Assembly (NCBI GenBank): GCA_000310025.1
Contig: FN649735.1
Span: forward strand, 1,716,633 to 1,762,733
Source: Ectocarpus siliculosus
Lineage: Eukaryota > Sar > Phaeophyceae > Ectocarpales > Ectocarpaceae
DNA length: 46,101 nucleotides
Direction of reading: 5' to 3'
The notes beneath the pieces were generated by a model, which saw nothing but the letters and a program-made list of their open reading frames with translations, ran no database searches and had not been told where the DNA came from. Both the position numbers and the translations under genes were made by a program. The stretch's first letter is position 1. Each line of letters starts with the position of its first letter. This document shows positions 7,462 to 21,700 of the stretch, in pieces.

Positions 7462-9597
7462 TTAGCAGCCGCTGACATCGCAGCACTCGCCACACGTTGT
7501 CGAAGGTGTGCTTGCCCACGCCAGCTCGTTATCCGCGCAGCCCCAGGTGGCTGCACAAGCACGCAGGCAAAACCGAGGATCAACAAAAGGCATTAGCGAC
7601 GACGCGAAGAACAACACCAAAGCTTCACCATCGCGAAAGAAGAGCGACGCACACAGGCAGTGTTCGACAAGAATCCAAGCACCACCTACGACTGCAGTGG
7701 GCGGGCCTCAACAACGTCCGTTGTATAGCGCCGGTGGCTCTGAATAGCGCCAGATAAATTGCTCGATACAGGCTGAATCATCAAGTCATCCTGTAGTTTG
7801 AAAAAGCGCCGGTCCCTCTGAATCTGAATTTGTAGCGCCGGTCGATTCGCCGGGCTCACACCGGCGTTGTTGAGCACCCCCCCCCCAAATGTACTGCATC
7901 CACGGTCGTAGCACAGAAATACCAGCCATCGCGCCATCGACACGACAAACGAGATATACCTGCGCCGGAGAGACACACGAACGGCACCGTGCTGCCGCAC
8001 GCCTGCGACGGGTGCCCGGCCAGGTTGGAGCACTGTGTTTCGTCGCACTCTAGGCAGCGCCGCGGCAGGTCGTCCACGCCGGTGTTCTCAAGGGTATCGG
8101 CGCAGCCGGAGAGGTCGCAGAAGGACGTGCAGCCGTCGCCTCCAGACCACGTAGAGGCGCTGTCTGCGCACCTGTTGAGGAGGGGGCGCGCGGAAGAGAG
8201 ATAGCATGAGATATGGTGGTGGTGTAGCGCTCGCCGGGAAACGAAAGAGGAATCTCGTTGTGAGTTTTTGACGATGGCTCTTACGCGATGTGTGGTCGTT
8301 ATGTGTTTGTTTCTGGTTGTTTCACAGCAGTCATTCAATCTTGTTGCTGTACACGTACACCCTGAAGTAGGATTAATGCGCCGAGAAGACTCGAACGCGT
8401 GAGGCACGCGCGCACGCCAATACCAACGACCTATCATATGTACCGAATTCCGACGGACGGGGCGGGAGCTTACACTCATCACCTTTGATACGGATCTAAA
8501 ACACCGACAGTAGGTGTTACGGTCTGTTAGAGTTGAGCTACGGTTCAACATCCGGTCAGACCTTTAACAGGTACCACAACAACAGACCGTCAACAACGAC
8601 GACGACTAATTTAGCAACAACGGTACAAGGCGCCCACCCTCCAGCGGAGCCCCCGTCCAGGCAGAGGAAAGGGGCCCCGTCCCAGTCGCAGCCCGAGCTC
8701 GTGCAGGACAGGAGGCTGCAGGAAGGGACGCTGTCCGTGGAGGCTTGCATGGGGGTCGCGGCAGCGCCGGCAGCTGCGGGAAGGGGTCGTTGCCGGACAG
8801 AGGAGGCGGTGCGGTTGGAAGAGTAATTTTTTTCAAAAAAACGCCTCTGTCATGGCAAACCCTCCGCGTGTGTGGGAACGAAACAGACTGGACACATGGG
8901 ATGAGAACAAACCTGTTGGGGGGCAAGCAAGCAACAGAAACACAATCAAGTTGTTCGACCACCACTCGCATGCCTGTGAGCGACGGTTTTGGCTGGGTCG
9001 CTTGACGAGAACAAAGTTGGTTCGAGATGTGCAAACCTCAGGATTAGCGAATGGTGTTTCTGCAATCATATCTCATGGCTACGTGGATTGCGCGTTTAGA
9101 TTCATCATTATTCAAAACCTGTACGTCGGTACATATCTACGACCCTACAACTCGCAGCTTTGGCAGGTCCGCAAGCACGCTGCTTGTGAAGCGTTGGCTG
9201 CCGTTTGATTCGGCCAACCTCGATCAAACGTGTTGAAGTTCCCATCTCCGAACCCACATCGGGCTTACACGTGTGTTTAGCATGTTAACCCGGTAACAAC
9301 TAGCTACTGCTGCTGTGTTGCATTGCTGTGCATTGTGCTCCGGAAGTGGTAAATCTACAGCAGTCAGCACACGTCTTCCCAACAGACCAACACACCGGAA
9401 GCATCCTCCCGAGCATGATGAGCAGACAGTCCACAGGCCAGCAGCAGAGCGACACCAACCGCCGCCGCCAACGCCGGTACCACCCATCCTTTGCGCCGCG
9501 GCTCAGTGCCAGCTATCAGCGACCCTTCCTCCCCCCGTTCAAGGGCTGCTGCCCCGGCACCCGCCTGGATCATCTCATACGATTGCTTGTTGGTCAT
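7462..9597 (-). CDS. membrane-anchored protein with duplicated cysteine-rich module, four exons
   Basis: The exons on the minus strand are 9597-9396, 8773-8638, 8171-7960 and 7550-7462. The intron phases (1, 2, 1) match at every junction, and the product is 212 aa ending in TAA. Residues 1-36 are polar and end in RRK. Residues 37-58 form a hydrophobic helix (WVVPALAAAVGVALLLACGL), predicting a type II anchor with the C-terminus in the lumen or outside. Two related cysteine modules follow. Module A has C86, C91, C96, C105, C114, C127, C131 and C136. Module B has C152, C155, C160, C171, C179, C188, C203, C206, C207 and C212. Both share PF-x-C-L-x-G, then G-C-A-D nine residues after that Cys, then C-x3-C-D-(L/V)-S-G-C. 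The even cysteine count suggests disulphides. I recognise no named family and infer no function. An upstream in-frame ATG at 9648 would add 17 residues. The gene diverges from the GFA gene 385 bp away. Confidence 0.75.
7706..7875. mobile_element. probable small MITE-like element in intron 3 of the cysteine-rich gene
   Basis: The stretch is bounded by the inverted repeat CTCAACAACG (7707-7716) and CGTTGTTGAG (7865-7874). The interior holds repeated GCGCCGGT motifs and a block (AAGTCATCCTGTAGTTTGAA) that resembles AAGTCGTTCTGTACTTTGAA inside the better-defined element at 10998-11192. No target-site duplication is clear. It is probably a diverged relative of that family. Confidence 0.45.
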
Positions 9598-9982: not shown

Positions 9983-12900
9983 ATGGCTGAGACCAAGCGC
10001 ACTCTGACATGCTGGTGTGGCGATGTGGAGATGGAGCTCGTGGGCGCTCCGCTGGCTAGCCTGCACGTGAGTTGTAGACGTACCGCTGTATGCAACTTGC
10101 AGCAGTTCTGCTGCTAAGCTCGTCTGTGTATGTAGTTCCGCCTGTTTTTCTGGTCAGCTCCGAAGCCCAAGTGAGATTGACAGGAGGTGCCTGATGATGC
10201 TGTGCACAATGTGCTGCTGGCAGCCCTCACGGCCACGCAGCTATTGTCACCCCGCAAAGGCTGCCTGGGCCTGTCCCGCCTTGCCGTGGGCTCAGTTGAG
10301 TCAAAGCCTACACACGTAACATGATACTGCTGTAGATAGTCAACACAACAGCAGTGGGTTGGGTGGCTGCTTGGGCACTGCTGTCTACGTGCAGGTCCAG
10401 TGGTCACGTCTGCCCGATTCCCCCTGCTCGACGACTGGCTGTGGGTGTGGTGGGTATGCAAATACTTCGATTATTCTGTGATGCACATACACATGCGTAG
10501 ATCTCTCTTGCCCTGTGCTCCCCCGGACAAAGCAGGAAACGGATGGGAAGAGAGGGGAAGGAGCGCAGCGTTTTCGTTTTATTTCCAGCGGTGACTCGTA
10601 CAGTACGCGGCGTTTTTTCATGCAACCCACCGCTCGGTATCGCGCGTTTGCCGTCGACGCAGCAGAGACATGCAGGAGTTCGGCAACATTACCTGGTAAA
10701 CCCAAACCTCCTGATGCATGGCTGCAGTTGTCTCATCACGACTTGCACGGACTGAGCTGCGTTCAATATATCCAGCAGTGTCACCGAACCCTCACTGCTG
10801 TGTGCAGATTTCAACCACCTCCTCTGAGAATTTTCTCGAACGGGTGCTCGCTGTGATGCCACGTACACTGCTGTCTCGAAGTCCGAGTGAGAACAGAATT
10901 GGAAGGGTTGAGGGTTGTCCCTGCTGTTGGCATGTGGTGGTCTGACCACGTCGACTTGCCTCGGTGCTCCCAATGGGAACGGGAATACAGCAGTGTACAG
11001 TAGAGGTCCCTGTTTAGTGCCTGTTGAAAAGTGCCGGTTGCCCGTATAAAAGTAGACTATTTTAGGGCCGGTGTTTTCGCCCCGCATACACTGGGATACT
11101 AAGTCGTTCTGTACTTTGAATAGTTCCGGTGTCCGGTTTATTGTCGGTGAAATTTCTGCGCACACCCCGGCACTAAACAGGGACCTCTACTGTAGAAGTA
11201 CAATGTAGAGGCCCGCTCATCAGAAAAAACTCTCTTTATCGCGGTAAGATCCAATACCTTATCCAGGGTGATACGCTAGGGCTCGTTTGCCCCGGACTTA
11301 TGACACACCTTATGTCTCAGGCCAAACGTGTTGTACGTCAACTGCCTCCTCCCCCCTCGCCGTCCGTGTACATATCTCTCCACAATCGAAGACGGTCTGC
11401 TGTATACTGTATCACGACGACGGGACGTTTCTCAGCCAGTTGAGACACCCGAACTCCGCTACGCTGGTATCCTCTTCTACCGCTGCGTGGCCAGCGTTCT
11501 TTGTCTTGCCGGTGTTATGGCGACAGTTGTTTTTTTCCAAGAAATGTTCGTACCAGTACAGGAGACGACGTACACTGTTGTCCGTAGGAGATTTTAGCCA
11601 CAGCAGTCTGAAGAGGTGTGTTGAAGTTTTTGTTTCATGCTGTCTACAGGTTTTGTTTAAGACACAGCACAACGACACAGACAGCAAGGCCGCGTTGTCG
11701 AACCATTCCTGATATCCGCATGCCTTACACCTGCCTGCCAAGTTAAACGAAGAGATCACCCTCCCCCCGACCCCCACGTGGTTTGTCGAATCATGCTTTA
11801 CAGTGCCACTGCGTCATTTGCCAGAAGTGGTCGGGGGCTCCGTTCCAATGGCTAGTACTATATAAGGCCGACAAGACGTCCGTCGTCAAGGGGAAGGATA
11901 ACATCACCATCACTAGGACCAGCGAGGACATGGAGCGCGGGAGGTGCAAGGCGAGTCGCTGGCCGCTTCGGGCATGTTGAGGAACCGTTCCAGTGTACAT
12001 GTAGCTTCGATCCACAATTATTGTGGGTGGAGGTTTGGGACTCAGCTGTGCCAAAGCGACCGAGGTTTGCTCGCTTTCTACCGATCATCCCTTACCGATG
12101 TAGTATGTAGACAGGGATGATGGGATGAAGGAATTCAAGGTGCCCATTTTCTTCGTTTTCCTCGGTCATGTGAGTAATTTGGGTGCATGCAACGCTGAGC
12201 CGCAAACACGGTGCCGCTCCCCTCCCATGGTTGAGAGCGTTTCAAGTTTTCGTCTAATGAAACGCACAGAGACCTATTTGCGGTTGAGACGGGTGAAAAC
12301 GGGGGGCCGGAATTTGGGACGAGTTCTTGGTGATGTACGTCTGCCGGTAGCGCTGACAGCGCGCGGTCTTGTTTTTGTTGGTTTGTGCGCTTTGCAGGCA
12401 CCGTGCATAAACAGGGCGATCCTTTGTACTGCGCCAGCTTCGCCGTCATCGCCGCGGTCACCAATACTACTGCCGTACCATCACTACCATTTCATCGAGC
12501 TTCATCTTTGCGAGGTCCCCCCCCCGTTCTGTTCGCAGCTGTTACAAACACCTGCTTCATATTTTCCCCTCCTAAACTCCATCTCCCTCGGCTTTTGCCG
12601 GCCCCTTTTGGCACAACATGTTTTGCGTCCGCTCACTAAATGGTCCGCATTTTTTTTTTCGGTTATACTGTTTCCGGTGTTGCCTCTCCTGGCCCGGATG
12701 GATGCACGGATGGGCGGTCGGATCGAACGTTCGCAGACATGCACCTCGCACCTCTACAACAATCGGGGCGGGCACATTTTTGCCATTCCGGGTGTCGTTA
12801 TAAAGGTAAACCCGAAAAAAAGAAAAAGAAAACACGAGTACGGTTGGAAAGGTTTTCTCTTTTTCGATGCGCACTTTCTTGACGCCGGGCTGGTGGCGTT

Positions 12901-18700: not shown

Positions 18701-21700
18701 TCTCCCTCCTGCCCATGAGCTTCTCCACGTAGGAGAACTCGAGGCGGAAGTACTGAAGCCAGAGGTTCCGGGCGCCCGGGTTGATGCGCAGCCCCCTCTG
18801 CATGAGGGAGCGAGCGGACGAGGCGTTGCCGCCGTTGAAGAACTCCCAGCTCGCCGCCTTGATCCAGAGCCCGGGGTTGCGGGGGTGGAGCTGGAGGGCA
18901 CGGGCGAAGAGCCTGCCCAGCGCCTGCGGTATTATATTGTGCGCAATGTAGGGTGGTGGTCGTCGTTGTGGGGAGGAAGGGAAGGGGGAGAAGAAGGACA
19001 ATGTTCGATTTCTTGCCGCGTATTTACGGAGACCAAAGGAAGCAAGGGGTCTTTGGTGTGCTGCGGAAAAACACTCCTGAATGTGGTAGTAAGTTGAGGA
19101 TGAGGGCCCGTTCGCGCATTTCCTTCCTGCTGACAGTACCATCACGAAGGCTTCCGGTACTCGTTGGTCCTGACGACAGAATTTTTTGGACGTTTCCTCC
19201 GCCCGTTCCCCCTCTCGCTCGCTAACGCCGGTATTACGCCTCCTCCCGCTCAAGGCCTCTGACCGGCGGCGAAGTCAACGAAAAACATTGTTGCTGACAA
19301 AAAATCAGTCTAGTCGTTTCCTTAGACCCCCTCATCTCGCTCGTCAACGCCGGTACTACGCCGCCCCCCCCCCCCCCCCCCCTTGGTCTGCCCTTGACGG
19401 GGGGGGAAATCCAAGTAATGGAACCCGAAGTCCCCCTCCCCGGGAAACTTCATCACGGGGCGGTCGAAAAACCCCCCCACCCGGGGCACCCCACAAAAAT
19501 CGGCCGTGGCGGCCTTCCCCTTCTTGGGCTTCTTCTTGTTGCGCTGCTGGGCCCCCCTGGGGCCCCCCTCCATCCCTCTCGTGGGCAGGGCGCGCAGGGA
19601 CTCCAGGTTGAACTCGTACTCCACGTAACGCATGAAATCCAGNNNNNNNNNNNNNNNNNNNNNNNNNNNNNNNNNNNNNNNNNNNNNNNNNNNNNNNNNN
19701 NNNNNNNNNNNNNNNNNNNNNNNNNNNNNNNNNNNNNNNNNNGTGTTATTTCGGGGGGGGGGGCCCTTTTCGCTCTTTTCTTCCCGGCAGGAAGTCCCCA
19801 CCAAAGGTCCCCGGTTTTTTTTGGTCCCGGCGAAAAATTTTTTTGGGTTTTTTCTGCCCCCTTTCCCCCTTCTGGTCTCAAGAGGGGGGTTTTTGCCCCC
19901 CCCCCCCCAAAGGCCTTGGCCCGGGGGGGAAGTCAAAAAAAAATCTTTTTGGGGGCAAAAAATCGGTTGGGGTTTTTTTTTGGCCCCCCCCCTTTCGGGG
20001 TTTGGACCGGGGTCTTCGCCCCCCCCCCCCCCCCCCCCACCTTGCTCTGCCCTTGACGGGCGGCGAAGTCGATGTAGTGGAGCCAGATGTCCACGTCCCC
20101 GGGAAACTTCATCACGGCGCGGTCGAAGATCCACCGCACCAGGCGCACGCAGCAGAAGTCGGCCGTGGCGGCCTTCCCCTTCTTGGTCTTCTTCTTGTTG
20201 CGCTGCTGGCCGCCGCTGGCGCCGCCCTCGATCCGTCTCGTGCGCAGGGCGCGCAGGGACTCGAGGTTGAGCTCGTACTCGACGTAGCGCATGAAGTCCA
20301 GGCGACGGGCCTCGTGCCGCCGAAGCATGTACTCGAAGCCCTTTCTCCTGGAGACGATGGCGCGGACCTCGGCCTGCGCCGGTTGGGGGTGGGTGGGTTG
20401 GTGGGTGGATAAGACGCGTGTGGTGGCCAGACTGAAAACACTTGTATGCCGTCGGGTTTCGTTTCCGGGAGAGAACGGGTGATCGCTGCTCTCGGGCCGT
20501 GTATGTATAAAGATGGTGTGGAATTCGGTAGCGTGCTCTGTGCAACACGACAGCGACAACAGCCCACACGCTCTGGGGGAAGTAAGGGGTGCAGAGGTTT
20601 TCCTCAGGCAACAGGTTGCGTGCCGTGTGCTACCTGGGAGAGGCGCATGTTTCGTTCTTTTACTTCTCCGACTGCCGTCCAAAACAATGTGCAGCGTCGG
20701 CACCAAAGCAGGAGGGTGGTCTCCAGATGAATCACCGCCCTCTCCCAATAAAGGTGAACGGTACGGGTGAGAGGGTCACGAGGTTGGGCCAAGGGACACA
20801 AACAGCACGTCAAACACCCAGGGTTCACACAAGAGCGTAAGTATCACGGAGAGCCACCGTACTGTAGTGTACAGTTTTATTCATCGTGTCTTATTCTTGT
20901 CTACAACTGCCGCCGACTATCGCAAACGGCATCGTGCAGTTCGGCACACATGTACACACATCGTTGCGTCGAAGTTCCTCGCGGACATGTCCGTGCGGTA
21001 TTCGTACCGTGCTGCTTTTCTCGAGGTGCAGCTGTCTGGGTTGCTGTCTGTGAGGAAGCTCTGCTAACCCCTGCAACGCTTTGGGCTGGCTGCCCGTGCA
21101 TTGACGTTGCCATCGAGCATGTCCAATCCAAACTAATAACCAAGAGGGGTCCACAGCGGTACGATCATGTTCACCCACGCCAAGCCAAGGGGTATTCAAC
21201 CCCGCGCGAACTAGAGGCAGGCGGCAGCAATTGTAGTAGACTACCCTCGTGCTTTGTTGCAGCAGCAGCGGTAGACATTATTCACCAGCATGACGCATGG
21301 ATGAGGGCCAGAGTACGGCTGTCGGACTGGAAGCAGGCACGGTTTTTGCAGGCAGAAACGACACATCTCTGTAGACATCTCGGGCGAGCGGGAGGCTGAG
21401 AGAGAGAAACACACAGAGAGAGAGGCAGTCCTCAACAATGGCAGCTCCTCGGTGGCCGCACCTGTGTCTTCAGCATACGCTGTTATTGGCGTCCGGTTTA
21501 AAAACGAAAAGAGGGTTTTGCCTGTCCTACACACTACTCAACGAGCACTGAAATCGTTTCACCGGCCCCATTCTCTGCCCTAGAAATCGTAACGGAGCCC
21601 ACGGCACAGAAGTGCTGTGCCCTCTCCCTCTGTGGAGGCAAACGAGTCATGTCCAGTCACACCACACAGCAGCCGGCGAGTTCATCTCCGATTCCTCCCT

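Follow-up and report, generated by a model that had tools for sequence, protein, structure and literature searches.

Gene model at the locus

The window, by which we mean the whole stretch of 46,101 nucleotides of Ectocarpus siliculosus DNA that was analysed, contains on its minus strand, from 9597 to 7462, a gene model of four exons. Joined by predicted splicing, these exons give a coding sequence of 639 nt and a protein of 212 amino acids, with the following features in order of transcription.

Exon 1, 9396..9597, minus strand: 202 nt; ATG at 9597; residues 1-67, with the predicted cytosolic N-terminus and the hydrophobic segment
Intron 1, 8774..9395, minus strand: 622 nt; GT...AG; GC 0.51; boundaries are one of several possible sets
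Exon 2, 8638..8773, minus strand: 136 nt; linker and first half of module 1 (CSLLSC...PFLCLDGG)
Intron 2, 8172..8637, minus strand: 466 nt; GT...AG; GC 0.51; interrupts module 1
Exon 3, 7960..8171, minus strand: 212 nt; second half of module 1 (CADS...CDLSGC) and first half of module 2 (...PFVCLSG)
Intron 3, 7551..7959, minus strand: 409 nt; GT...AG; GC 0.54; interrupts module 2; contains a dispersed repeat at about 7688-7885
Exon 4, 7462..7550, minus strand: 89 nt; second half of module 2 (TWGCAD...CDVSGC) and the stop codon TAA

An earlier note on this DNA, made from the letters alone, had proposed four small exons, and this structure is upheld, with all introns of the GT...AG type. The GC content steps at the exon borders, from 0.64-0.73 in the exons to 0.51-0.54 in the introns. 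The note had also described the phases as fully matching. The frame does hold through the model, but this match is a weak argument for the exon 1-exon 2 join, where 15 GT/AG pairs preserve both the frame and the hydrophobic segment, with products of 188-244 residues. The donor at 9395 is one of several fitting donors for exon 1, and all 18 later cysteines are retained in 11 of the 15 pairs.

The dispersed repeat (7688-7885) lies wholly within intron 3, which we count in favour of the gene model. It has 40 further matching pieces in the Ectocarpus genome, two of them adjacent on contig C17, and carries 23-nt inverted arms at 7699-7882 that are 78% complementary. The open frame of exon 4 extends upstream into PRFCLRAC, which somewhat resembles PFxCLxG; we rejected this extension as coding and regard it as intron sequence, since it contains a pyrimidine-rich tract and a CAG acceptor, and since the corresponding half of the module is already encoded in exon 3.

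Codon usage, with the neighbouring UTP6-like gene as the training set, gives a mixed result. Among the three frames of the minus strand, the proposed one ranks first in exons 1, 2 and 3, and it is the best of all six in exon 1, but it ranks last in exon 4, and a plus-strand frame outscores it in exon 2 and, by a small margin, in exon 3. Codon usage therefore speaks against the exon 4 frame and is ambiguous for exons 2 and 3.

Two cysteine modules share spacing and motifs

The protein has 8 cysteines in residues 86-136 (module 1) and 10 in residues 152-212 (module 2), the numbers given in the earlier note, while Cys55 lies inside the hydrophobic segment. Likewise, the spacings of 9, 4 and 5 described for both copies are found in module 1 (C105-C114, C127-C131 and C131-C136) and in module 2 (C179-C188, C203-C207 and C207-C212). 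The MAFFT alignment of the two modules has 22 identical residues over 59 aligned positions, and their local score is 96 (BLOSUM62). This score is not reached in any of 20,000 full shuffles (mean 35.9, maximum 78), nor in any of 20,000 shuffles in which the cysteine positions were kept (mean 41.2, maximum 89). The motifs themselves are similarly rare by chance: PF.CL.G and C...CD.SGC each occur twice in the six frames of the window, compared to 0.06 and 0.00 occurrences, respectively, per shuffled window (100 block shuffles).

To locate the shared signal within the module, we compared the module pieces with the whole window by tblastn (BLOSUM62, composition correction off; BLOSUM45 gave the same picture). 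With the second half of module 1 as query, exon 4 is matched at E 1.2e-4, with the best unrelated place at 0.068, and in the reverse search the second half of module 2 finds exon 3 at E 0.001, with the best unrelated place at 0.046. Module 1 in full matches exon 4 at E 2.4e-4 (best unrelated place 0.008), in an alignment that reaches 27 bases into intron 3. By contrast, the first half of module 1 matches exon 3 at only E 0.25 and is surpassed by an unrelated place (0.019), and the reverse search for the first half gives E 0.32, no better than unrelated places in the window. The second half of the module carries a strong duplication signal, but the first half alone does not rise above unrelated places.

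The codons of the two modules have diverged. Different codons are used at 12 of the 22 identical residues, and in two of these cases a serine has switched between AGC and TCC. The identity between the modules is 0.42, 0.56 and 0.46 at codon positions 1, 2 and 3, and is thus highest at position 2 but not lowest at position 3, unlike the classic pattern in which third positions are the least alike. Third positions are 76% GC, which raises the identity expected by chance at position 3.

Searches for relatives

The protein matched none of the families in Pfam, NCBIfam and PHROGs at E ≤10, in agreement with the earlier note, whose author knew no named domain with this pattern. EGF-like and WSC domains had been named beforehand as matches that would refute the proposal, and Pfam returned neither at this threshold. 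No match for the protein was found among PDB sequences, and a profile of the module drew three PDB chains at chance level (best E 0.34). Pattern matches in IMG/VR viral contigs (50) and in prokaryote genomes (462) yielded no confirmed case, phages gave none at E ≤1, and Rfam had no match in the window. We met no description of the module in the papers searched. AlphaFold, run on the exon 3 peptide as a single sequence, gave an uninformative prediction (mean pLDDT 43.5).

We also searched the genome itself (189,456,909 bases in 492 contigs, with the window on contig C10), using the full protein (E ≤1) and, each at E ≤10, module 1, module 2 and the second half of module 1 joined to module 2. The only significant matches are the four exons of this locus, although single-sequence queries split by introns leave distant paralogues possible. 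Three other places were considered as paralogues and rejected: C13:543169 (E 0.747 with the full protein and 0.135 with the joined query, with one TGA inside), C489:1167383 (E 0.166 with the joined query) and C33:2286862 (E 0.955 with the joined query and 0.354 with module 2). All three signature motifs are absent in six frames at these loci, and we therefore take the matches as chance. The suggestion that the module belongs to a family expanded in brown algae thus finds no support in this genome, since the sole significant match is the locus itself and the others, at E 0.135 to 0.955, lack the signature motifs.

Comparison with known cysteine-rich families

WSC and EGF-like domains resemble the modules in that they too are small ectodomains rich in cysteine and frequently occur on proteins that are anchored or secreted, but neither has a Pfam match in this protein at E ≤10, and a loose six-cysteine EGF pattern is absent from the protein. 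The likeness to LDL-receptor class A modules is a loose one: F-x-C, a tryptophan, and then Cys-Asp ahead of the last cysteine. Class A modules carry the calcium motif D-C-x-D-x-S-D-E, however, and its acidic S-D-E is absent here, nor is there a Pfam match at E ≤10.

The EsV-1-7 family (PF19114), to which IMMEDIATE UPRIGHT of Ectocarpus belongs, shares with our protein a repeated short cysteine motif and the brown-algal setting. Its pattern, C-x4-C-x16-C-x2-H, is absent from this protein, which again has no Pfam match at E ≤10. The two also differ in number: there are at least 150 EsV-1-7 stretches in this genome (a lower bound, as 150 of 880 candidates were scored), whereas the present module matches significantly at this locus only. 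No EsV-1-7 stretches were found in 14 control genomes, but the two controls identified by name are prokaryotes, so this contrast does not set brown algae apart from other eukaryotes. A review describes EsV-1-7 as expanded in brown algae (PMC7457493).

Interpretation of the module gene

The single hydrophobic segment, which peaks at residues 39-57 (mean Kyte-Doolittle 2.46), coincides with the signal anchor that had been placed at residues 37-58. It is preceded by 36 residues, the last of which, directly N-terminal of the segment, are PRRK. Under the positive-inside rule, positive residues before a segment favour an N-terminus inside, and PRRK thus favours a cytosolic N-terminus. One N-terminal hydrophobic segment with PRRK ahead of it would suit a type II protein, although cleavage is also compatible with the sequence. 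The calculated pI of residues 60-212 is 4.05, and each module has an even number of cysteines, which we count in favour of a disulphide-rich ectodomain.

The locus probably holds a real, lineage-restricted gene without an assigned function, matching no family searched. The fullest explanation we can offer is that of a single-copy protein-coding gene whose two modules arose by internal duplication and whose product exposes an acidic, disulphide-rich ectodomain at the surface or wall; taken jointly, with all its parts, this explanation has about an even chance of being right. Entry into the secretory pathway would depend on the hydrophobic segment, and the protein would most likely stay anchored with its N-terminus in the cytosol. 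An acidic ectodomain of ∼150 residues would then be exposed, and the two modules would fold outside the cytosol, held together by as many as 4 and 5 disulphides. Judged by this architecture alone, the ectodomain would most likely be a small, rigid unit with a binding or structural function, either on the cell surface or within the wall matrix.

The alternatives concern mainly where the protein goes. A lumenal Golgi or ER resident, anchored as Golgi enzymes are, with modules that help to hold or recruit wall-polysaccharide enzymes, is unlikely: the short cytosolic tail and one hydrophobic segment form a type II layout, common among Golgi proteins, but no enzyme domain was found with Pfam, and the sequence features examined do not separate Golgi from surface. 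We consider it quite unlikely that the segment is a cleaved signal, and the product a secreted small cysteine-rich protein or a precursor of two peptides. The small residues ACGLSA, C-terminal to the hydrophobic core, make cleavage conceivable, and the modules could be released apart, but 36 residues ahead of the segment is long for a cleaved signal. That exon 1 is part of another transcript, and the module exons use a different first exon, draws on the 15 compatible exon 1-exon 2 pairs, which make this fit cheap; it is nevertheless improbable, as a cysteine-rich module pair wants a secretory signal and codon usage prefers the exon 1 frame. That the gene has decayed, or that its open frames arose by chance, might explain the lack of a homologue in the databases and genomes searched and the mixed codon usage, but is very improbable given the shuffle tests, the motif counts against shuffled windows, the open frames and the GC step.

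Returning to the anchored surface protein, we consider it possible, though rather doubtful, that the module represents a novel type of disulphide-rich extracellular domain, limited to brown algae or near relatives, which anchored surface proteins would use in recognising the wall or other cells. It would have been overlooked so far because an intron splits each copy and the sequence between the cysteines changes fast. Should orthologues share the cysteine spacing, the module would count as an extracellular domain not described before, from a lineage whose multicellularity and wall evolved independently. As matters stand, the gene is an orphan of an ordinary kind, one among many, in which a previously undescribed module is duplicated. 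In a study of generation-biased genes in brown algae, up to 18% were without an ortholog in the other species compared (PMC6374913).

Neighbouring genes and repeats

On the minus strand, 4027-4626 matches the beginning of a DnaJ domain (PF00226, E 5.8e-9), and a possible end piece at 1563-2153 on the same strand is very weak (E 0.081, below the cut-off). The divergent neighbour of the module gene, on the plus strand, has a GFA-family (PF04828) stretch at 11792-11953 (27.9 bits against a cut-off of 24.3). Its first exon is probably 9983-10066, in a frame without a Pfam match, and would lie head to head with the module gene, 385 bases from the start codon of the latter. A small MITE-like element with perfect 26-nt terminal inverted repeats occupies 10996-11194. 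The UTP6-like gene has its PF08640 stretch at 19936-20775. A stretch of 282 nt occurs there twice (19361-19642 and 20020-20301, 86% identity) with a run of N between, and has the look of an assembly duplicate, rich in errors, beside a gap.
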